Positions 23,829-33,407 of a stretch of DNA of 36,608 bases are shown here, piece by piece (position 1 is the stretch's first letter; each line of letters starts with the position of its first letter). The position numbers and the translations under genes were made by a program. The stretch comes from a bacterium. Lineage in GTDB: Bacteria > UBP14 > UBA6098 > JAFGQG01. The notes beneath the pieces are model-generated. The model worked only from the letters and a program-made list of their open reading frames with translations, had not been told where the DNA came from and made no database searches. The stretch covers positions 1 through 36,608 of the forward strand of contig JAFGGQ010000001.1 of NCBI GenBank assembly GCA_016930435.1. The letters are read 5' to 3'.

Positions 23829-25835
23829 TTATCGTAAATACAGTATTTTGTCAATATATTTCTGACCTTCGAATTCCAAAGTGACAAAGTACAAACCGCT
23901 TGATGCTGTAACTCCGGAAATATCTTTACCATCCCATGTGAAATGTACCCTGCCGTTATTATTACATATTCCCTGCAAACTGGTTAGTTTTTTTCCGTCA
24001 ATGCTGAAGATATCAACCAACGGAGTTTCTGATCTGTATTTGTCAGTGCCGTTGAATTCAATAGTTACACAGGAATTAAAAGGATTGGGATAGCTTTTTA
24101 AAACCTGATAATGTTCAGGCAGCATAGAGCTTTCGGACTCCCATATTCCTGTATATCCATACATCCATTCTATGGCTCTGCGCATCAGGTTGAATCGGTC
24201 GTATTCATCCATAATCGATTCAAAATTAAAGGATAGGAAGATGATTTTATTAAGTTCGGTTTCAACCCTTATGCCGCCGCATTTTGTGGAATCTCCACCG
24301 AATTTGAACATTTTCCAGGCATCTCCATCATAGGGATAGATTATATCCGGGTTGGAGCTACTGAGAATGCGCATAAACCGAAAGATATTAGCTATCTCGT
24401 CATCCTCAAATCCCTGTAACCAATATACACCAGCGGTTTCTCCATCGTAACGGGCATGCAAATAGTTGTTCATAAAGTCGTAATGGGAATGGGAATAAAG
24501 ATCGTCTGCGATGTTCTCACCAATGATAAAAAGGTTGCCGCCATTCTCAAGATAGCTGATGATAGCTTCCCTGTCATCACTGCGGAGTGTATTGGATGTG
24601 CTGCTTCCGGTGAACCAAATGAGCATATCATAATTGTGCATATATTCACCTTGCAGGGCGCCTTCTTCACGGCTAACAAAACCATAAGGTACATCCAGGT
24701 TATCTATAACACCTTTATATACAATCTCAGTCAAATCTCCTCCGTCATCATCGACCAGGAGGATAGGACCGCCGGTACTGGCTTCAAATAGCAGCGTGTC
24801 TGACGTCCCTGCCAGAAGGGATTGGACGATCATATATACTTTGGCTATGCCGAATGCCGTGGGGGCCTGCAGGTTAACATTAAGTTCCTCAGAATCACCT
24901 GCGGGAACATAGACAGTATCGGAGCTTTCATAGGTACTACCTCCCGCTGAAAAATTAACCAGCCAATCACCGGTAGATTCATATTCCAAATAGATAATAT
25001 AATAATCTTCGGAGTAGCCGATATTTTCCAGGGCTACATTGAAGGAAAAGGATGAATCTGGAAGCATCAAGGTGGTCAATCTATCCGTGGAAAGCTGAAA
25101 TTCCCGGTACATAGGTGGCAAGTCCCCCCGAAATGCCTGGAATACCTCATCAGTGGAAAGGTCCTGAACAAATACCACCAGTTGCAATTGTTCACTGTCC
25201 CACAACGGATTAGTGGTATATTCGGTTTTAAAGTAATAGGTTCCGCGGGATGAGAGATCGATCACGTCACCATCACAATCAACAAGCATATCCCTCATAA
25301 CGTCCATAAAATGTGTTTGGCCATTGGGTGCAGAATAAGCGATATTGTTTTCGATGATGGCATGTATCAACCGGAGGTTGGATGAACTAATCGGCTCTTC
25401 CACATTGATCTCCACCACGATAGTATCATCTATAACAGAAAAATCCAGTGTAATAGGAGCGTCATCATCTCTCCTATCCAGAATGGAAGATTCGTAAGCT
25501 TCATAATCAGACCCGATATTATAGCGTCCATCCAGCCGCAGATTGGGGACTCCTGAGACGCCGTAAAAGTATGTGCGGCATTCGTTTTCGAAGGTATTGG
25601 CAAGGTAGAAGGGATCATTGCCCGGTGAAGGCCACCAGACATGATAGCGGATCAGCACGAATTCATCATAATATGGTTCACGAAGGTTATCCAGTGCGCT
25701 ATTGGATGGGAGGCACGGACCGCAGGTCGTGCTAGTAAAAAGCTCTGCCAGCACCGTCCTTTCTGCGGCAATAAGGGTTCCTATCAGCAATGATAATAGA
25801 AATAAAAATACAAATATTGTTTTTAAGATTCTCAT
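23829..25835 (-). CDS. Omp28/thioredoxin-like surface protein with CGPC site and type IX-type tail
   Basis: The 668-residue product has a signal peptide (about 1-23) and a thioredoxin-fold start: VLAELFTSTTCGPC (Cys38, Cys41) with a cis-proline-like VPNLRLDG near residue 97. The first 240 residues resemble Omp28-related outer membrane proteins of FCB bacteria. Then come an Ig-like stretch (about 245-350), a Rossmann/GATase1-like domain (about 355-560, beginning ILLVDDDGG with WFTG and ENGGNLFIIGE), and a C-terminal sorting domain with YPNPFN and a final KILYLR. I infer a surface thiol-redox or disulfide protein delivered by type IX secretion. It is 22 nt after a paralogue (25858-27882). AAGG lies about 9 nt before ATG. 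Confidence 0.82.
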   Translation of the reverse strand: MRILKTIFVFLFLLSLLIGTLIAAERTVLAELFTSTTCGPCLPSNSALDNLREPYYDEFVLIRYHVWWPSPGNDPFYLANTFENECRTYFYGVSGVPNLRLDGRYNIGSDYEAYESSILDRRDDDAPITLDFSVIDDTIVVEINVEEPISSSNLRLIHAIIENNIAYSAPNGQTHFMDVMRDMLVDCDGDVIDLSSRGTYYFKTEYTTNPLWDSEQLQLVVFVQDLSTDEVFQAFRGDLPPMYREFQLSTDRLTTLMLPDSSFSFNVALENIGYSEDYYIIYLEYESTGDWLVNFSAGGSTYESSDTVYVPAGDSEELNVNLQAPTAFGIAKVYMIVQSLLAGTSDTLLFEASTGGPILLVDDDGGDLTEIVYKGVIDNLDVPYGFVSREEGALQGEYMHNYDMLIWFTGSSTSNTLRSDDREAIISYLENGGNLFIIGENIADDLYSHSHYDFMNNYLHARYDGETAGVYWLQGFEDDEIANIFRFMRILSSSNPDIIYPYDGDAWKMFKFGGDSTKCGGIRVETELNKIIFLSFNFESIMDEYDRFNLMRRAIEWMYGYTGIWESESSMLPEHYQVLKSYPNPFNSCVTIEFNGTDKYRSETPLVDIFSIDGKKLTSLQGICNNNGRVHFTWDGKDISGVTASSGLYFVTLEFEGQKYIDKILYLR

Positions 25836-25857: not shown

Positions 25858-27882
25858 TTATTTGGTTAGTATCATCTTGATCCTGGATTTTTCCCCGGGG
25901 TATTCCAATTGACCGATATAGATTCCGGCTGGTAGGGCTTGGCCTTCCTGATCAGTACCATCCCAGTATAGATGGTGGAATCCGGGTTTTAGAGATTTCC
26001 AGGTATAGCTTCTGACCTTTTGACCGGTCAAATTAAATATTTCAAATGAAATTTTTTCGTTCGCTGTAGAATTCAAATAGAATTCTATTGTAGTAAAGGG
26101 GTTGAACGGATTAGGGTAGTTTGGTTTAAGGGTAAACAAGCCGGGTATTTGGAAGGGGAGACCTTCTAAAATTTCGGTTTCAAGCCCGAGCCATTCCAGT
26201 ATTCTCCGCATCAATAATATGCGGTCATCGAGGTTGTTAATTGCCTCATAGGCAAAGGGTAGATAAACCACACGGTATTCGGCGGTTTCGATCTTTAAAC
26301 CGCCACAAAGGCTATCCCCGCCATGGTAGTAAAAAATGGGGGAGGCATATTCATCAACCGGTGCGATAACATCGGGGTATTCATTATTGTTAGCCCCATC
26401 CCCTCCTGAACAATCCAGTTCCAGAGCATCGGAAACCAAATCCCCATCAACCCCATGCAAAATATCGGACAGGGCATCGTCTTCAATAAATTCTGCATGC
26501 AGGTAATCTGAATAGAAATCTGTACGTCCTTCAAAACTTAATTCCCAACCTGTTTCACAACTGCAGAAGAATAAGCGGCCTCCCCCTCCCAGGAATGAAG
26601 CGAGGGCTTCCTCATCCTCAGGAACGATTGTGTTTTCGTAGGAATTTCCGGTAAACCATAGGGCTGCCTCGAAGTATTTGAGCTCGTTATAGGTTACAGG
26701 TTGCTGATCATGGTCGATTACACCATAAGAAACATCTAAGTTATCCAGCGCTTCAGTATAATAATCTTCGTAATCAAATCCCTGATCGTCGTCCACGACC
26801 AGTACCTGGAGTCCGCTCATAGCAGTAAAAACGGTAGTATCAGGTATTCGAAAATGTGAACCTGATATGATCATTGATATTCGCCCTGTTCCAGGAACTC
26901 CCAGGGGGTAGATATCTGCGGTTATGGTTTCTACTTCGGCGGGAGCCAGTGTAATTTCTGCAGTGAAGGGATAGCATCCGTCTTCGGTACAAAAGCTCCC
27001 GATCCAGCCCTCGGGGGCATCGATGCTGATCGAAACGGTGAATATCTCCGAAGAGCTTCCTTCATTGGTTAAAGTAGAAAAGAATTCCGCGGAGCTGTCC
27101 GGTTCGATTACCATGATACTTTGCTCATAATTATAGCTAAAATAATACTCTGGTGTCGGCAGGGCTGCCTTAGCAGCCTGAAGGATTTCTTTTGTATCCA
27201 TATCCTGCACCCATGCTACAAATTCAAGATTAATCCAGTGCCATTCGGTTGAAAGTGTATAGCTAAAAACCCTGCGCAGGGTGGTTATTGAAGAAATATC
27301 CACGGGTTCCCCTTCGGAAGCAGGAAGTATATGGCGCATAACCTGATTAAACTTCTTTTGGCCGTTAGGGGCTTCATAGTCTATACCGGATTCCACTATA
27401 GCGCAAAAGAGCCTGATATCCGAACTGCTTATTGGCTCTTCATTGGAGATAGTAATTTCAATGGAGTCCGTTTCGATGAAATTCAGGGTAATTTCCATAG
27501 GCGCATCCCGTTCCATTTCCGCGATAAGGGAATCTTCCAGGTCTTCAAGGTAATGGAAGCCGCCGGTTTCAATGGCGCCATCAAGGTAAAGTTTTGGAAT
27601 GAAATCATAACTATAAAACTCGCTTCTCGCCTGATTCTGCTCGGGATTAGCCAGATAAAACCTGTCACCGGGCAAGGGAAGGAGGGTATGATAACGAATC
27701 AATGCCAGTCTTTCCGGATACTCCGAAGCAAGGCTATCAAGTAAATATGCAGGGGTTGCGCAGGAGTTGGATAACCCGCTTGTAAAAAATTCTCCCAATA
27801 CGGTTCTCTCAGCTGGAAAAACAGAATGAACAAAAGCAATTAGCAAGATAAAAATCGCTATAATAAGTGGCTTTGCTTTCAT
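25858..27882 (-). CDS. Omp28/thioredoxin-like surface protein, paralogue lacking the first active-site Cys
   Basis: The 674-residue product has the same domain order as its downstream neighbour: signal peptide ending FPA, thioredoxin-like start (AERTVLGEFFTSG), Ig-like middle, GATase1-like domain (LVVDDDQG, WFTG, GGGGRLFFCS) and a type IX-type tail with YPNPFN and a final KMILTK. At the active site CGPC is replaced by SNSC (Ser38, Cys41), so the protein cannot form the usual intramolecular disulfide. The cis-proline-like IPKLYLDG is kept. It may bind rather than exchange thiols, or use one cysteine as in monothiol proteins; this is inference. It shares 'EEPISSSDIRL' and 'APNGQ' segments with the neighbour, showing common origin. 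A weak GGA precedes the ATG. Confidence 0.8.
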   Translation of the reverse strand: MKAKPLIIAIFILLIAFVHSVFPAERTVLGEFFTSGLSNSCATPAYLLDSLASEYPERLALIRYHTLLPLPGDRFYLANPEQNQARSEFYSYDFIPKLYLDGAIETGGFHYLEDLEDSLIAEMERDAPMEITLNFIETDSIEITISNEEPISSSDIRLFCAIVESGIDYEAPNGQKKFNQVMRHILPASEGEPVDISSITTLRRVFSYTLSTEWHWINLEFVAWVQDMDTKEILQAAKAALPTPEYYFSYNYEQSIMVIEPDSSAEFFSTLTNEGSSSEIFTVSISIDAPEGWIGSFCTEDGCYPFTAEITLAPAEVETITADIYPLGVPGTGRISMIISGSHFRIPDTTVFTAMSGLQVLVVDDDQGFDYEDYYTEALDNLDVSYGVIDHDQQPVTYNELKYFEAALWFTGNSYENTIVPEDEEALASFLGGGGRLFFCSCETGWELSFEGRTDFYSDYLHAEFIEDDALSDILHGVDGDLVSDALELDCSGGDGANNNEYPDVIAPVDEYASPIFYYHGGDSLCGGLKIETAEYRVVYLPFAYEAINNLDDRILLMRRILEWLGLETEILEGLPFQIPGLFTLKPNYPNPFNPFTTIEFYLNSTANEKISFEIFNLTGQKVRSYTWKSLKPGFHHLYWDGTDQEGQALPAGIYIGQLEYPGEKSRIKMILTK

Positions 27883-27985: not shown

Positions 27986-29167
27986 TCAAGGGTTGATGGA
28001 TTGCACCTGGACAATTTCCTTACTGGTTTCGTCTTGCAGGAAAGCAACGAAAATAATATCCTGCAGGGTCAGATCTGCAGGCAAGACATAACTGAAATGA
28101 AGATTTTCTTCTCCTGGCGTCAAATTCACCTCGGTTCCTTGATGGTTAGGCAGAAATCTCCTTATAATATGTTTGAATTCGGTCAATCCGTTGGAACCGG
28201 GTGGATTCTCGAAACTGCGTTGCTTTTCCAGCAAGGCAACGTATAGTTTACCCTGATAATCCACTTCGGAGAAGGCGGTCAGGTTCAGGGCGCTATCTCC
28301 CAGTACCTCGCCCCATAGAGCTATTTGAGCGGGTAAAGCCAGTTTTTCCTCAACCGAGGGCACTAAGTTCGCGGTATCATCCACATTTTCCAGGATTAAT
28401 TCGCCGTCAATGAACACATTAGGCGCATTAAGGACATTATAGAAAGAGACCCGGGCGTTATTTTCGGACGGGGCATTGAGAAACATGGGGTCGGTCGGCG
28501 AGGGCCAGCTGACATGATAAGAGATTATGATCAATTCACCATCGTAATTTCTTTCCAGGCTTTCCAGATATGGGTCCACGTCCCCGCAGGGATTACAGCT
28601 GACATTGGTAAAGTCCTCCAGCAGAACCTTTTTCCGGGGGTTCTCTACAGAGAAAGAAAGCTCAAGGGTATCATTCTCCAATATGGTAACTTCCTGCGGT
28701 TCCGAATCCTGAAAGCCATCCCGATGTACCCAGACCTGATGAGTGCCTACCGGTATCAGCACCATGCCGGGTGTAAGGAAACCGGTATTATGACAATTTA
28801 TCACGATCTCCACTCCGGGAGGGTTGGAGCTAACTTCAAGAATACCGTAATGCAGTGCGGAATCCAATTCAAAATCGATGGTGTAGGATTCACCTCCTTT
28901 CACTGAAAGGGTAGTTTCCGGGGGAAGATCATAAATATAAAGGGAAAGGTTAAATGAATATTCCCCTTCTTCCAGATCTAAAGTATAAGGAGTATTATGA
29001 TTGGTACATTCAGCATTAAGGATAATCGTAGCTCCGGATGGTTGGGAATTAATATTGACCGTACCAATATGGGGATCTTCCCCATTATTTCCCATACAAA
29101 CACAAAGAAATATCAAAGAGCAGATGATTATAGCTAAAATAACGAGTATGTTCTTCCTTGAGTTCAT
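27986..29167 (-). CDS. PEGA-domain / Omp28-type thioredoxin-like exported protein
   Basis: The 393-residue product has a hydrophobic N-terminal segment (about 8-25, with LCVC that may serve as a poor lipobox), two PEGA domains in tandem (about 35-100, with INSQPSGATIILN, and about 107-175, with VSSNPPGVEIVI), and a thioredoxin-like domain (VLLEDFTNVSCNPC, Cys191 and Cys194; cis-proline-like APNVFIDG near residue 250) of the same type as the two downstream paralogues. It has no type IX tail. PEGA domains are common on cell surfaces, so I infer a membrane-anchored thiol-redox protein facing the periplasm. GGAG lies about 6 nt before ATG. It starts 24 nt after the polyferredoxin gene, which suggests one transcript. 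Confidence 0.82.
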   Translation of the reverse strand: MNSRKNILVILAIIICSLIFLCVCMGNNGEDPHIGTVNINSQPSGATIILNAECTNHNTPYTLDLEEGEYSFNLSLYIYDLPPETTLSVKGGESYTIDFELDSALHYGILEVSSNPPGVEIVINCHNTGFLTPGMVLIPVGTHQVWVHRDGFQDSEPQEVTILENDTLELSFSVENPRKKVLLEDFTNVSCNPCGDVDPYLESLERNYDGELIIISYHVSWPSPTDPMFLNAPSENNARVSFYNVLNAPNVFIDGELILENVDDTANLVPSVEEKLALPAQIALWGEVLGDSALNLTAFSEVDYQGKLYVALLEKQRSFENPPGSNGLTEFKHIIRRFLPNHQGTEVNLTPGEENLHFSYVLPADLTLQDIIFVAFLQDETSKEIVQVQSINP

Positions 29168-29191
29168 GGTAACTCCTTTTCGATATGATGA

Positions 29192-30034
29192 TCAGGCTTC
29201 ATTCATTTGGGGGGATGATTCAGTATCCCGTGCTAAATAAGTACTTATCCTTATTGCCCCCGAAGGGCAGGCTTTTATGCATTCCATGCACCTGATACAA
29301 TTAGTATCATAGGGATTCAGGTGGATTTTAACGCCCATAGGACAGACCTCTTCACACTTCTGGCAGAGAATACAATGTTCTTTTTGGACTTTCAGTTGAA
29401 GCAAGCTGATGCGGTTGAAAAATGAAAGTATCGCTCCTACAGGGCAGATCATCCGGCAGAATATCCTTTGAGAAAGGAGCATCAGGATGATAAAGACGGT
29501 TAGGATTGCGATTTTGCTCCAGAACAGAATACCAAGGAGGGGACGCAGTTCGGGATGAAGTATGACCTGGGGAATTCCCCCCTCCAGAGCTCCTGCCGGA
29601 CAGAGTTTACAGAACCATGGATCCATGGTTATTATGGGCACTATAATCACCAGGCCTACCAGTACAAGATATTTGAAGTGTTTAAGTACAGATGGTATTT
29701 TTAAATCAGGCAAATGTAATTTTCTGCCGAGCTTAAATAGCAGATCCTGTAAGAAGCCGAAAGGGCATATCCAGCCACAGGTCCATCTCCCAAGAAAAAT
29801 CCCCGCAATCCCTAAAAAACCGATAAGGAAAAAGGGTACTGCCCGAATAACAGCAAAGTGAGCAAGGCTCCCTGCCGGGCAGGAAGTATAGGCACTCGGA
29901 CAGGCATAACAGTTTAAAACAGGCAAACAAAAACCCTTAAGAGGCCCCTGGTAAATATTCCCCTTTTCCCAGAATACCTGTAAATAACTATTAGGGATTA
30001 TGGTACCCAATATCTGGATAATGCGTCTTTTCAT
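29192..30034 (-). CDS. membrane 4Fe-4S polyferredoxin (NapH/NosR-like)
   Basis: The 280-residue product is a multi-helix membrane protein with many cysteine clusters: NCYACPSAYTSCPAG near the start, CGWICPFG (the NapH/CcoG-type motif), CKLCPAGALEG, CRMICPVGA, and a C-terminal cytoplasmic-type ferredoxin with two full sets (CILCQKCEEVCP and CIRCMECIKACP). Members of this group pass electrons from cytoplasmic donors or quinol to partners across the membrane. The partner is not encoded here as an oxidoreductase; instead thioredoxin-like exported proteins follow. It is preceded by a 50-residue CxxC protein ending 15 nt upstream. No clear ribosome site lies before ATG 30034, which suggests coupling to that gene. 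Confidence 0.92.
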   Translation of the reverse strand: MKRRIIQILGTIIPNSYLQVFWEKGNIYQGPLKGFCLPVLNCYACPSAYTSCPAGSLAHFAVIRAVPFFLIGFLGIAGIFLGRWTCGWICPFGFLQDLLFKLGRKLHLPDLKIPSVLKHFKYLVLVGLVIIVPIITMDPWFCKLCPAGALEGGIPQVILHPELRPLLGILFWSKIAILTVFIILMLLSQRIFCRMICPVGAILSFFNRISLLQLKVQKEHCILCQKCEEVCPMGVKIHLNPYDTNCIRCMECIKACPSGAIRISTYLARDTESSPQMNEA

Positions 30035-30049
30035 GATGAACTTTGGAAC

Positions 30050-30202
30050 TTAGCCAATACCGATACAGGATAAACAGAGGATGGTTCCATTAACGAAAAT
30101 CTCGATGACTTCCTTTAAACCAATACCCACCATCATCAGTATCAGGAATATCAGCGCTAAATCACCAAATATAAACCACTTGATAAGTTGTTTGCGGGTC
30201 AT
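30050..30202 (-). CDS. 50-residue membrane peptide with C-terminal CLSCIGIG tail (CD1871A-like CxxC protein)
   Basis: Minus-strand ATG 30202 to TAA 30050-30052 encodes a protein with a basic start (MTRKQLIK), one transmembrane helix (about 10-28) and a C-terminal ICLSCIGIG tail. Small proteins with a final '(I/L)CLECIG(I/L)G' are annotated as the CD1871A family of CxxC proteins, and I recall them beside 4Fe-4S polyferredoxins and thioredoxin-like proteins, exactly as here. The function is not established; the tail may donate or accept electrons or hold a metal centre. It starts 8 nt after the HU stop (30211) and ends 15 nt before the polyferredoxin. The upstream sequence has no strong ribosome site. 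Confidence 0.78.
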   Translation of the reverse strand: MTRKQLIKWFIFGDLALIFLILMMVGIGLKEVIEIFVNGTILCLSCIGIG

Positions 30203-30210
30203 ACCTAAAA

Positions 30211-30483
30211 CTAATCCAACATATCCTTAAAAAGTTTGGAAACCTTGAATACCGGTATTTTCCTGGTAGGTATTTTTACCGGATCACCAGTGCGGGGATT
30301 CCGGGCCATTCGACTCTTCCGCTCTTTAAGCTGAAATGTTCCGAATCTCCGTAATTCGATCTTTTCACCCTTCGCAACAGCCTCCTTGATGGTGTCAATT
30401 AGCTTGTCGCAAATCACGCCTGTCTCCGTCTTGGTAAAGCCTGTTTCATCAGCCACTTTCTCAACCAGGTCAGCCTTGGTCAT
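30211..30483 (-). CDS. HU family DNA-binding protein
   Basis: The 90-residue product is a standard HU/IHF-type nucleoid protein: MTKADLVEKVA, then helix-helix packing, IELRRFGTFQL, and the DNA-binding arm RMARNPRTGDPVKIP with the conserved RNP.TG and the intercalating proline. It bends or coats DNA as a dimer. GGAGGAATAAGG lies directly upstream of the ATG. It is 44 nt downstream of the lytic transglycosylase gene and 8 nt ahead of the CxxC peptide gene, so it may be co-transcribed with both; the link to redox genes is probably incidental. Confidence 0.95.
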   Translation of the reverse strand: MTKADLVEKVADETGFTKTETGVICDKLIDTIKEAVAKGEKIELRRFGTFQLKERKSRMARNPRTGDPVKIPTRKIPVFKVSKLFKDMLD

Positions 30484-30527: not shown

Positions 30528-33407
30528 TTATGGAGTATAAACAGTTAATCGCGAACCTATCCTCAAGGATTTCGGATTACTGATACTGTTCAATTCAACC
30601 AGTTCCTCTGTAGTCATATTATGTAAGTTGGCAATTCCCCAAAGGGTATCCCCGCTCCTTACAACATATACTGATTTCTTCTTGTTGTTTAAGACCAATG
30701 ACGGCGAAGCAGCAGTATAAATGGTCAATTGCTCTCCAATCTGCAACCTGTCATTACTTTTACCGTTCCATGATTTCAAATCGGCGATAGTAACCCCATA
30801 GGAATTTGCGATTTTATACATGGAATCGCCTGACTTAACGGTGTAAACTGTTTTATCCTGAAATCCGGGAGACTCCTCATGTACATCGGCCAATACTGTC
30901 AAATGGTCCCCGGGTTGTAAAACATGGTCGTTACTGTAAATATTGTTCCAGCGTTTAAGGTCAGATACAGTCACCTTATATTTACCGGCAATAGACCACA
31001 GGGTCTCGCCGCTTTTAACAACATAGGTTAACTTGCCCTTGGGCTCGGTTATCAGCGGTTGGGAAGTAGAATTAACTATCAGTTGCTGCCCCGGGTAGAT
31101 CAGAGAACTTGCATCCAGATTATTCACGGATAACAACTCGTCAATACTAATCCCATATCTTTCTGCAATCTGTGAGGGAGTATCACCTACTCTTACGGAA
31201 TATTTGGTTACGGGTTGGATTTGGGTAACCATATTCTGGGAGGGTTCAACGAGGCTCAATTCCTGTCCCGGAAAGATCCTTGAATTATTATTTAATTTGT
31301 TGTAAGATAATAGATTGGATAATGTTAAGCCGTGTTTTTCGGCGATCTGGGAGGGGGTATCTCCTGCCTTCACCGTATATTTTGTTGGTATGGCTTTTAC
31401 ATCAGCTGCATCCTTTATTGAAGATGTTCCGGGCTGTATGAAGACCTCCTGGCCGGGATATATGGTGGCATTACCCTGAAGCTTGTTCAGGCTTAAAAAT
31501 TCGGATAGGGACATATTGTTTCTTTCAGCTATATGGGAAGGAGTATCCCCGGGTTTGACGGTATATTGGATCACAACCGGGATTTCAGAAGGACTGGCCG
31601 GAGATGATGGTGATGAAGAGTTGGATCCGGTTTTTATCTTAAGTTCCTGTCCGGGATATATTCGGGAGTTATTATTAAGGCTGTTAAGGGTCAGAAGCTG
31701 GGCTAAGGAAATGCCGCATTTAGAAGCGATACCGGAAGGTGTATCGCCTTTCCGGACGGTATAGCTGTTGCTGGAGTAACTTGCGGTTCCGGGTACCCTC
31801 AGTTGTTGGCCAGGGTAAATAGTGCCGTTGGCTGCCAGGCCGTTGGCCTTGCTTAATTCCCTGACAGAAATCCCATGGGTCTGTGCTATTTCACTTAAGG
31901 TGTCATTCTTCTTTACTGTATAAATTCCATTATAGGAAATACTGCTGTTGACGGTTGAAGATGATGAGGATAATGAGGAGGATGACTGGGCATAGTCCTT
32001 GTATTGGGAAGGCTGAATGGGGATCAGCAGGTTCTGTCCGATGCTAAGTTTGTTGATGTTACGGAGTTGATTGGCATCCACGATAGCCTGGACCGAAGTT
32101 CGATATCTCATCCCGATCTCGGAGAGGGTTTCGCCTTTTTTAACCACATGCTGAACCCATCCGGTTTTCTTGTCCTCGGGGATTTGAGAGTAACGTGGAT
32201 AAAATCCGTCCGCCTTGCCCCTGGGTACACGGATGGGGTAATTAGGGATATTGGGGGGAGTACACCATCGCAATATTTCAGGATTGATTGATTGAATGAA
32301 CTCGAAACTGGTATCCGTGCATTCAGCTACCAGTTTCAGGTTGGTTACTTCCTGGACTACTATAGTTTCATAATCCAATGGTGGGGCATATTCGGGAAGG
32401 AAACCGTAGCGTTCGGGGTTTTTTGCGATTATCACTGCGGCCATAAAAAGTGGCACGTAGTTTTCGGTTTGGCGGGGAAGGTCCAATTCCCAGTAGTTCT
32501 CAGTCCCCTGTTTTTTTATTTCCCTTTGGACCCGGCCTTCCCCGCAATTGTAAGCGGCTAAAGCCAGCTCCCAGTTATTGAATTTTTTATAGAGACTTTT
32601 CAGATATTTGGCCGCAGAATAGGTGGCTTTAATGGGATCACGTCGCTCATCCCGCCACCAGGATACCTCCATCCCGAACATTCGCCCTGTACTCTTTATG
32701 AACTGCCATAATCCTACCGCATGAGCCCAGGAATATGCATTGGGATCAAAACCGCTCTCAACCAAGGGTAAATAGGTAAGGTCCAGAGGCAATCCCTCCT
32801 CCTTGAATATCTTCTGAATAAGTTCAAGATAGGTGCCTGAAGCGGTTAGCCATCTTTGGAAAGGTATGTGGCAATCGGTCTGGAAAAAGATAACCTTTTC
32901 TTTAACCTTATCATTCCAGACGATTGGTATATCATAATCTACTTTCTGGTCTGAAGGGAGCTGGGAGATAAGCTTATCCAGTTGCCGATGGGTGGATTTG
33001 CTGAGGGCTTTTTCCTCAAGGGCGAGGGATAAGATCGCGGGGGCGCTGGAACCAACCAGATCGCGATTGGAAAGTAAAGTTATCTGATAATCATAAGCGA
33101 TTTCCCGGAGTAACTGGTCAATTTTCCCCACCAGGTGCGGGTCCCTTTCCTCATCAACATCGATCAGGGATATTATTTCCAAAGCTGTATCAAAATTTTG
33201 CTGAGCCTTATCCCATTCCTGTTTCATATTATGAATTACTCCATTTGCGTATGCCTGTTCCGCCTCCGATAGTTGACGGTAAGCCTCATCCACACCCTTT
33301 TTCTGGGCTTTTTCCTGATAGATATCCTGGGATTGGAAAAAATGGGAACAGCCACTGATAAAAAATAGTAATAGGAAGAATGATAGAATAAAATAATGTC
33401 TTGTCAT
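30528..33407 (-). CDS. MltD-like membrane-bound lytic transglycosylase with nine LysM repeats
   Basis: The 959-residue product starts with a lipoprotein signal (FFISGC, Cys20). The catalytic SLT domain (about 195-330) has the acid Glu217 in YLPLVESGFDPNAYS, then AVGLWQFI.STG, WWRDERRDP and ALAAYNCGEG, the usual order of MltD-type lytic transglycosylases, which cut the glycan strand to give anhydro-muropeptides. After a linker, residues about 417-957 hold nine LysM modules (pattern Y.V..GDT...IA......L...N......I.PGQ.L), separated by Ser/Pro-rich links. Ordinary MltD has two to four, so the tail is long. It acts in the periplasm, probably held in the outer membrane. A candidate promoter lies at 33451-33479. 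Confidence 0.93.
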   Translation of the reverse strand: MTRHYFILSFFLLLFFISGCSHFFQSQDIYQEKAQKKGVDEAYRQLSEAEQAYANGVIHNMKQEWDKAQQNFDTALEIISLIDVDEERDPHLVGKIDQLLREIAYDYQITLLSNRDLVGSSAPAILSLALEEKALSKSTHRQLDKLISQLPSDQKVDYDIPIVWNDKVKEKVIFFQTDCHIPFQRWLTASGTYLELIQKIFKEEGLPLDLTYLPLVESGFDPNAYSWAHAVGLWQFIKSTGRMFGMEVSWWRDERRDPIKATYSAAKYLKSLYKKFNNWELALAAYNCGEGRVQREIKKQGTENYWELDLPRQTENYVPLFMAAVIIAKNPERYGFLPEYAPPLDYETIVVQEVTNLKLVAECTDTSFEFIQSINPEILRWCTPPNIPNYPIRVPRGKADGFYPRYSQIPEDKKTGWVQHVVKKGETLSEIGMRYRTSVQAIVDANQLRNINKLSIGQNLLIPIQPSQYKDYAQSSSSLSSSSSTVNSSISYNGIYTVKKNDTLSEIAQTHGISVRELSKANGLAANGTIYPGQQLRVPGTASYSSNSYTVRKGDTPSGIASKCGISLAQLLTLNSLNNNSRIYPGQELKIKTGSNSSSPSSPASPSEIPVVIQYTVKPGDTPSHIAERNNMSLSEFLSLNKLQGNATIYPGQEVFIQPGTSSIKDAADVKAIPTKYTVKAGDTPSQIAEKHGLTLSNLLSYNKLNNNSRIFPGQELSLVEPSQNMVTQIQPVTKYSVRVGDTPSQIAERYGISIDELLSVNNLDASSLIYPGQQLIVNSTSQPLITEPKGKLTYVVKSGETLWSIAGKYKVTVSDLKRWNNIYSNDHVLQPGDHLTVLADVHEESPGFQDKTVYTVKSGDSMYKIANSYGVTIADLKSWNGKSNDRLQIGEQLTIYTAASPSLVLNNKKKSVYVVRSGDTLWGIANLHNMTTEELVELNSISNPKSLRIGSRLTVYTP

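Follow-up and report, generated by a model that had tools for sequence, protein, structure and literature searches.

A small one-helix protein with a C-terminal CxxC motif (hereafter the mini-protein) and a membrane polyferredoxin (PFD), encoded side by side in a bacterial DNA stretch of 36,608 nucleotides (the window), form a pair that is conserved together almost obligatorily across genomes, normally as neighbours. The two probably constitute a transmembrane relay of the ferredoxin:thioredoxin-reductase kind, which would deliver electrons to exported thioredoxin-fold proteins. The computational basis for this reading consists of homology, the near-obligate pairing, gene order, natural gene fusions, in-frame TGA codons accompanied by a hairpin and SelB, invariant cysteines and the thioredoxin fold of the third protein of the locus. 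If true, the pair would provide a concrete route for keeping exported thiols reduced in bacteria that have no DsbD or CcdA, and it suggests a candidate role for NF040920, a widespread protein family of unknown function. We know of no earlier example of an Fe-S-to-thiol electron exporter, and the mini–PFD unit would be the first. Searches of an open-access library yielded no paper on the unit, and an earlier description elsewhere is possible.

The gene run in the window

The genes for the mini-protein, PFD and a PEGA-domain protein follow one another on the minus strand with intergenic gaps of 15 and 24 nt (Table 1). A preliminary description, made from the sequence letters, had reported this row and its redox cysteines, the 50-residue one-helix protein ending in CLSCIGIG, NapH-type clusters together with a two-cluster ferredoxin in the membrane protein, and CNPC in a thioredoxin-like domain of the PEGA protein. 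The coordinates and cysteines were confirmed, the small protein proved to be conserved in its class, the CxxxCP pairs and the dicluster domain are present in PFD, and an AF2 model and Foldseek agree on the thioredoxin-like domain. An HU gene lies upstream and ends 8 nt from the mini gene, so that the gene run begins at HU or further up.

Table 1. Genes of the redox locus and its surroundings in the window
Feature	Position	Strand	Description
Omp28-domain protein, T9SS-like tail	23829..25835	(-)	carries CGPC
Omp28-domain protein, FlgD/T9SS-like tail	25858..27882	(-)	CxxC degraded to SNSC
PEGA(x2)-Omp28 protein	27986..29167	(-)	393 aa; CNPC in exported thioredoxin-fold domain, about residues 165-393
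Membrane polyferredoxin (PFD)	29192..30034	(-)	280 aa
Mini-protein	30050..30202	(-)	50 aa, one helix, C-terminal CxxC (CLSCIGIG-COOH), CD1871A-like; ends NGTILCLSCIGIG
HU-family DNA-binding protein	30211..30483	(-)	conserved upstream neighbour; context, outside the mechanism
MltD-type lytic transglycosylase	30528-33407		nine LysM repeats

The order MltD, HU, mini, PFD and an Omp28-type gene is maintained in families f1, f2 and f4. HU, mini, PFD and Omp28 occur in this order in part of family f3, while other f3 genomes have unrelated genes after mini–PFD, and in some f3 relatives a dCMP-deaminase-like gene takes the place of the Omp28 gene next to the pair. The MltD-type gene upstream of HU, mini and PFD is kept in part of the window's class.

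Conservation and pairing of the mini-protein

A homologue of the mini-protein was found beside the same PFD in 16 of the 17 genomes of the window's class, in each ending in CLSCIGIG or nearly so, and the open reading frame is therefore not a chance one; the exception is a genome 74% complete. The columns G26, C43, L44, C46, G48 and I49 are invariant in the class alignment, and the relatives of the class include 'candidate division Zixibacteria bacterium 4484_93'. With its single transmembrane (TM) helix and C-terminal CxxC, the window copy has the features of the CD1871A family, to which the preliminary description had likened it. The likeness holds for these features and for homologous relatives that pass the 32-bit cut-off of the NCBIfam model CD1871A_fam (NF040920), among them class relative L033 (32.1 bits) and the selenocysteine (Sec) forms L066 and L068, with distant relatives reaching up to 65.7 bits. 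The window copy itself stays under the cut-off (14.7 bits, E 0.02); judged by these profile scores, it is homologous to the family but outside formal NF040920.

Across a panel of 386 genomes, the mini profile matched in 56, 49 of them at E 1e-4 or better, and a PFD profile cut-off of 1e-45 selected 60 genomes. Each of the 49 genomes with a clear mini-protein is among these 60 (Fisher p 9e-52 over the 386 genomes, kinship ignored). Ten of the 11 PFD genomes without a clear mini-protein carry a divergent one just upstream of PFD. It takes the form of a longer membrane protein with RICLSCIGIE (G045, G192, G327) or VCLECMGFK (G087) at its end, of a variant with NICMSCIGLYD plus an extension (seen in G108 and G246, and assigned in G375, of the same genus, from a matching upstream pattern), or of a segment of a fusion protein (G116, G254 and G382, the G382 sequence being nearly the same). 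None was seen in the inspected region upstream of PFD in G144.

PFD is well separated from its paralogues, scoring at least 279 bits in the 20 genomes checked in detail against at most 101 bits for the next one. Of 50 loci, 43 have PFD directly downstream of the mini gene, as identified by ORF in 39 and by tblastn in four, and in the remaining seven genomes it is found elsewhere in the genome. The mini gene adjoins a thioredoxin-fold gene, with PFD lying elsewhere, in G145, G282 and the f81 genomes. The conservation of all three genes together, which had been put forward as a check on the original proposal, thus holds for mini and PFD as a near-obligate pair, whereas the third gene is exchangeable and is absent in part of f3. 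A plasmid search gave no match. At three f96 loci (L155, L159, L162), a mini variant with a C-terminal extension after CMSCIGL occurs in a different context, downstream of a gene that by eye resembles a BadF/HgdC-type activator ATPase.

Anatomy of the polyferredoxin

PFD comprises three Fer4_5 stretches (PF12801, 63 bits) and a dicluster ferredoxin, its C-terminal part carrying two [4Fe-4S] ferredoxin motifs. The inner CxxxCP pairs, C86/C90 and C193/C197, correspond to both CxxxCP pairs of NapH, and together with the dicluster domain they give PFD the features of the NapH/MauN family, although its score against TIGR02163 (NCBIfam; 75.9 bits) misses the cut-off of 213. The match to TIGR02745 (CcoG-type) is weak, and Pfam searches of PFD itself found neither an FMN-binding domain nor a match to PF02683 (DsbD_TM).

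A further set of cysteines, C42, C45, C52, C142 and C145, is predicted to lie on the outer face. C42, C45, C52, C86, C90, C145, C193 and C197 are present in every covering PFD sequence (80 distinct rows), and residue 142 is Cys in 65 rows and Ser in 15; Escherichia coli NapH retains the inner pairs and is missing the outer set C42/C45/C52/C145. Loops 1 and 3 contain about 0.7 K+R per 10 residues, compared with 1.5-1.75 in loop 2 and in the segment that follows the last helix, and by the positive-inside rule these loop charges would make the outer set face outward. PFD cysteines are thus predicted on both membrane faces, and the four invariant outer ones would fit one [4Fe-4S] cluster. The proposed topology would follow from the charge rule and a natural fusion, and neither it nor the cluster geometry is based on a structure. 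An AF2 model of PFD from 21 sequences, with a pLDDT of 53, was discarded.

Selenocysteine forms of the mini-protein

In five families, an in-frame TGA replaces the first Cys codon of the CxxC motif, which is otherwise intact. This holds for all six mini matches in f138 (phylum of G150) and for nine of ten in f111 (phylum of G123), and TGA-type minis are also present in G324, G119 and G301. In each of the five Sec genomes found first, SelB scored over the cut-off (335-398 bits); among the five genomes of the window's class that were tested, it did so in none. A SECIS-like hairpin begins 15 nt after the first UGA base. Its six-base-pair stem is topped by a GGGU or GGUU loop, with the 3′ arm past or at the stop codon, and the two arms have undergone matched changes (e.g. 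GGAATC/GATTCC and GGGGTC/GACCCC). Stem pairing averages 5.65 of 6 in 17 distinct Sec genes versus 3.38 of 6 in 42 Cys genes (p 8e-8, kinship ignored), with the stem of Sec gene L066 pairing solely in a shifted register. This comparison of the arms is the SECIS evidence relied upon, in place of shuffle z-scores, which are unremarkable in several loci.

Because the in-frame TGA, the SECIS-like hairpin and SelB-bearing genomes occur together, the TGA-bearing relatives of the mini-protein, unlike the window copy, are predicted to be UxxC selenoproteins and hence redox-active. Sec in this motif would be more in keeping with thiol-disulfide chemistry than with metal binding. The prediction amounts to a selenoprotein family of roughly 45 residues that was not found in a 2026 compilation of 119 selenoprotein (sub)families, in which NF045500 is included and NF040920 is absent (PMC13188914).

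Two further observations concern these forms. In the Cys-type mini L081 (G084), the SECIS-like hairpin is still perfect (GGCGTC GGGT GACGCC), which would suit a recent loss of Sec. Ser occupies PFD residue 142 in 12 of the 15 PFDs that accompany a Sec-mini versus three of the 65 that accompany a Cys-mini, in a comparison whose loci include the Sec lineages L066-L070 and L174-L189, and both the Ser and Cys kinds exist within one genome (G324); the association was discounted as evidence, since the tree requires only about four changes, too few independent pairs.

Thioredoxin-fold partners

The PEGA protein consists of two PEGA domains (PF08308, 71 bits) followed by the Omp28/thioredoxin domain with CNPC. 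It scores 31.7 bits against Omp28 (PF11551), under the cut-off of 34.9 that the two downstream paralogues pass (40.8 and 41.7 bits). An AF2 model of the window Omp28 domain (pLDDT 91) assigns CNPC to residues 27-30, ahead of helix 30-43, and the best solved Foldseek matches are HBP35 (5y1a), Agrobacterium 2axo, Omp28 (2r2c) and many thioredoxins; according to the model, the protein has a thioredoxin fold whose CxxC sits where the first helix begins. The middle Omp28 paralogue has SNSC against CNPC and CGPC in its neighbours and has lost the first active-site Cys.

Omp28 is the type of third partner in the window's class, and TlpA or Trx7-like proteins take this position elsewhere. A same-strand thioredoxin-fold gene lies beside mini–PFD in 26 of 50 loci, with none detected in 24, and thioredoxin-fold matches occur at 0.169 per kb near the module versus 0.049 per kb farther off, both being descriptive figures since the thioredoxin HMMs were partly built from neighbours later found. 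All ten thioredoxin-fold neighbour proteins searched with Pfam matched AhpC-TSA/Redoxin or Thioredoxin_2/7. The Zixibacteriota locus L118 combines a Cys mini and PFD with two Omp28 genes behind them, both of which have an in-frame TGA at their own CxxC.

The clearest sign suggesting that the mini-protein works with thioredoxins comes from three f104 genomes (G116, G254, G382), in which a single predicted exported chain, TlpA(CGPC)-2TM-mini-Trx, is encoded immediately upstream of PFD. Its mini-like segment reads VLCTACVGIEE (CTACVGIE), and the second thioredoxin-like domain carries CKSC or CRSC. As an exported TlpA domain and a pair of TM helices precede the fused segment, the CxxC of this segment would be placed outside. 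The same side is predicted for the mini-protein in general by its N-terminal positive charges, the PFD loop charges and the natural fusions; a cytoplasmic CxxC tail, the outcome raised earlier as contrary to the proposal, was not borne out.

Proposed relay and alternative explanations

In ferredoxin:thioredoxin reductase, a one-electron Fe-S donor adjoins the cysteine pair that reduces thioredoxin. In the relay that we favour, single electrons from cytosolic ferredoxin or another low-potential donor would enter the two C-terminal [4Fe-4S] clusters of PFD and pass to an inner-face cluster (C86, C90, C193, C197) and on to an outer-face cluster (C42, C45, C52, C145). Beside the latter, the CxxC of the mini-protein (UxxC in some lineages) would take up a pair of electrons, becoming a dithiol or selenol-thiol, and pass them to exported thioredoxin-fold proteins through thiol-disulfide exchange, the targets in the window presumably being the PEGA-Omp28 protein and the Omp28 relatives encoded downstream of it. 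For this relay, we infer the cluster content, topology, mini–PFD contact, complex formation, direction of flow and substrates. A path from the polyferredoxin through the CxxC tail to thioredoxin-like proteins had been suggested in the preliminary description, and the pairing, the fusions and the Sec minis lend it sequence-level support. At L094 (G210), a gene that by eye resembles pyruvate:ferredoxin oxidoreductase (1178 aa) lies upstream of TlpA, mini and PFD on the same strand, about 290 bp from TlpA, which fits a ferredoxin donor.

PFD could also resemble CcoG/FixG and act in the envelope as a reductase of metal or heme or as an assembly factor, delivering electrons one at a time to Cu(II), Fe(III) or heme outside, with the mini-protein as a metal-handling CxxC chaperone and the thioredoxin genes as a general redox neighbourhood. 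We regard this as unlikely: the Fer4_5 and ferredoxin parts are indeed common to PFD and CcoG-type proteins (with the weak TIGR02745 match), and HBP35, whose solved structure comes nearest to the window Omp28 domain, is a known binder of hemin, but thiol chemistry better suits both the change of the first Cys to Sec, seen in five families, and the position of the mini segment between two thioredoxin domains of one chain. That PFD is instead a NapH-like, quinone-linked module, connecting the quinone pool to an exported reductase via the mini-protein with a donor other than cytosolic ferredoxin, appears very unlikely. The resemblance to NapH extends across the C-terminal two thirds of PFD (75.9 bits), and in many genomes exported flavoproteins receive electrons from NapH-like proteins (PMC8238504), yet PFD lies far under the NapH cut-off (213), possesses extra outer cysteines and has no FMN-binding domain.

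It is more improbable still that the mini-protein is a structural or assembly subunit whose cysteines complete a PFD cluster, the adjoining Omp28 genes being incidental. Such a subunit would agree with a near-obligate mini–PFD pairing whose third gene is variable or lacking; Sec, however, would be an unusual cluster ligand, the minis of G145, G282 and f81 adjoin a thioredoxin-fold gene with PFD at another place in the genome, and Trx–mini fusions exist.

Relation to DsbD and CcdA

DsbD_TM (PF02683) was detected in 31 of 60 PFD genomes versus 57 of 60 genomes without PFD, that is, it is absent from 29 and three, respectively (p 6e-8, kinship ignored), in a sample that mixes related genomes and lifestyles. 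No PF02683 match was found across the window genome, which extends genome-wide the earlier remark that DsbD and CcdA are missing nearby, but two proteins match the looser, DsbD_2-type PF13386, and one of their genes clusters with a CKAC thioredoxin-like gene and, by eye, an ArsR-like regulator. A CcdA-like route may therefore coexist with mini–PFD in this organism, where the pair is possibly not the sole route. The use of mini–PFD in place of DsbD is plausible across lineages and not established for the window organism itself. The chances are about even that the pair represents a distinct class of reductant conduit, ferredoxin-fed, with PFD clusters on both faces and a ~45-residue CxxC/UxxC exit port, which replaces DsbD/CcdA in diverse bacteria.

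Comparison with known systems

With soluble ferredoxin:thioredoxin reductase, the mini–PFD unit would share its chemistry, a one-electron Fe-S donor beside a redox-active cysteine pair, but it spans the membrane, is built from unrelated proteins and would act on exported substrates, so that the likeness is one of mechanism only. DsbD, CcdA and ScsB carry cytosolic reducing power to exported thioredoxin-fold proteins, the task proposed for mini–PFD, which differs from them in lacking PF02683, in its proposed Fe-S clusters as opposed to intramembrane cysteine relays and in having a separate one-helix CxxC/UxxC carrier. The CD1871A family (NF040920) and the minis have in common one TM helix and a C-terminal CxxC-IG(I/V)G, whereas the window copy scores 14.7 bits against a cut-off of 32, and the family name gives no function. 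Like the Omp28-related selenoprotein (NF045500), UxxC forms of which adjoin mini–PFD in L118, and Porphyromonas HBP35/Omp28, the window Omp28 protein has a thioredoxin fold followed by an Omp28 beta domain, but it is a PEGA fusion with CNPC and lies under the cut-offs. NapH and the NapH-like flavinylated systems, which supply exported flavoproteins in many genomes (PMC8238504), are likewise Fer4_5 polyferredoxins with two CxxxCP pairs, a dicluster ferredoxin domain and outward electrons; PFD, itself without an FMN-binding domain, adds the outer cysteine set and a proposed thiol/selenol output, so that family and outward direction are common to both while the output is different.
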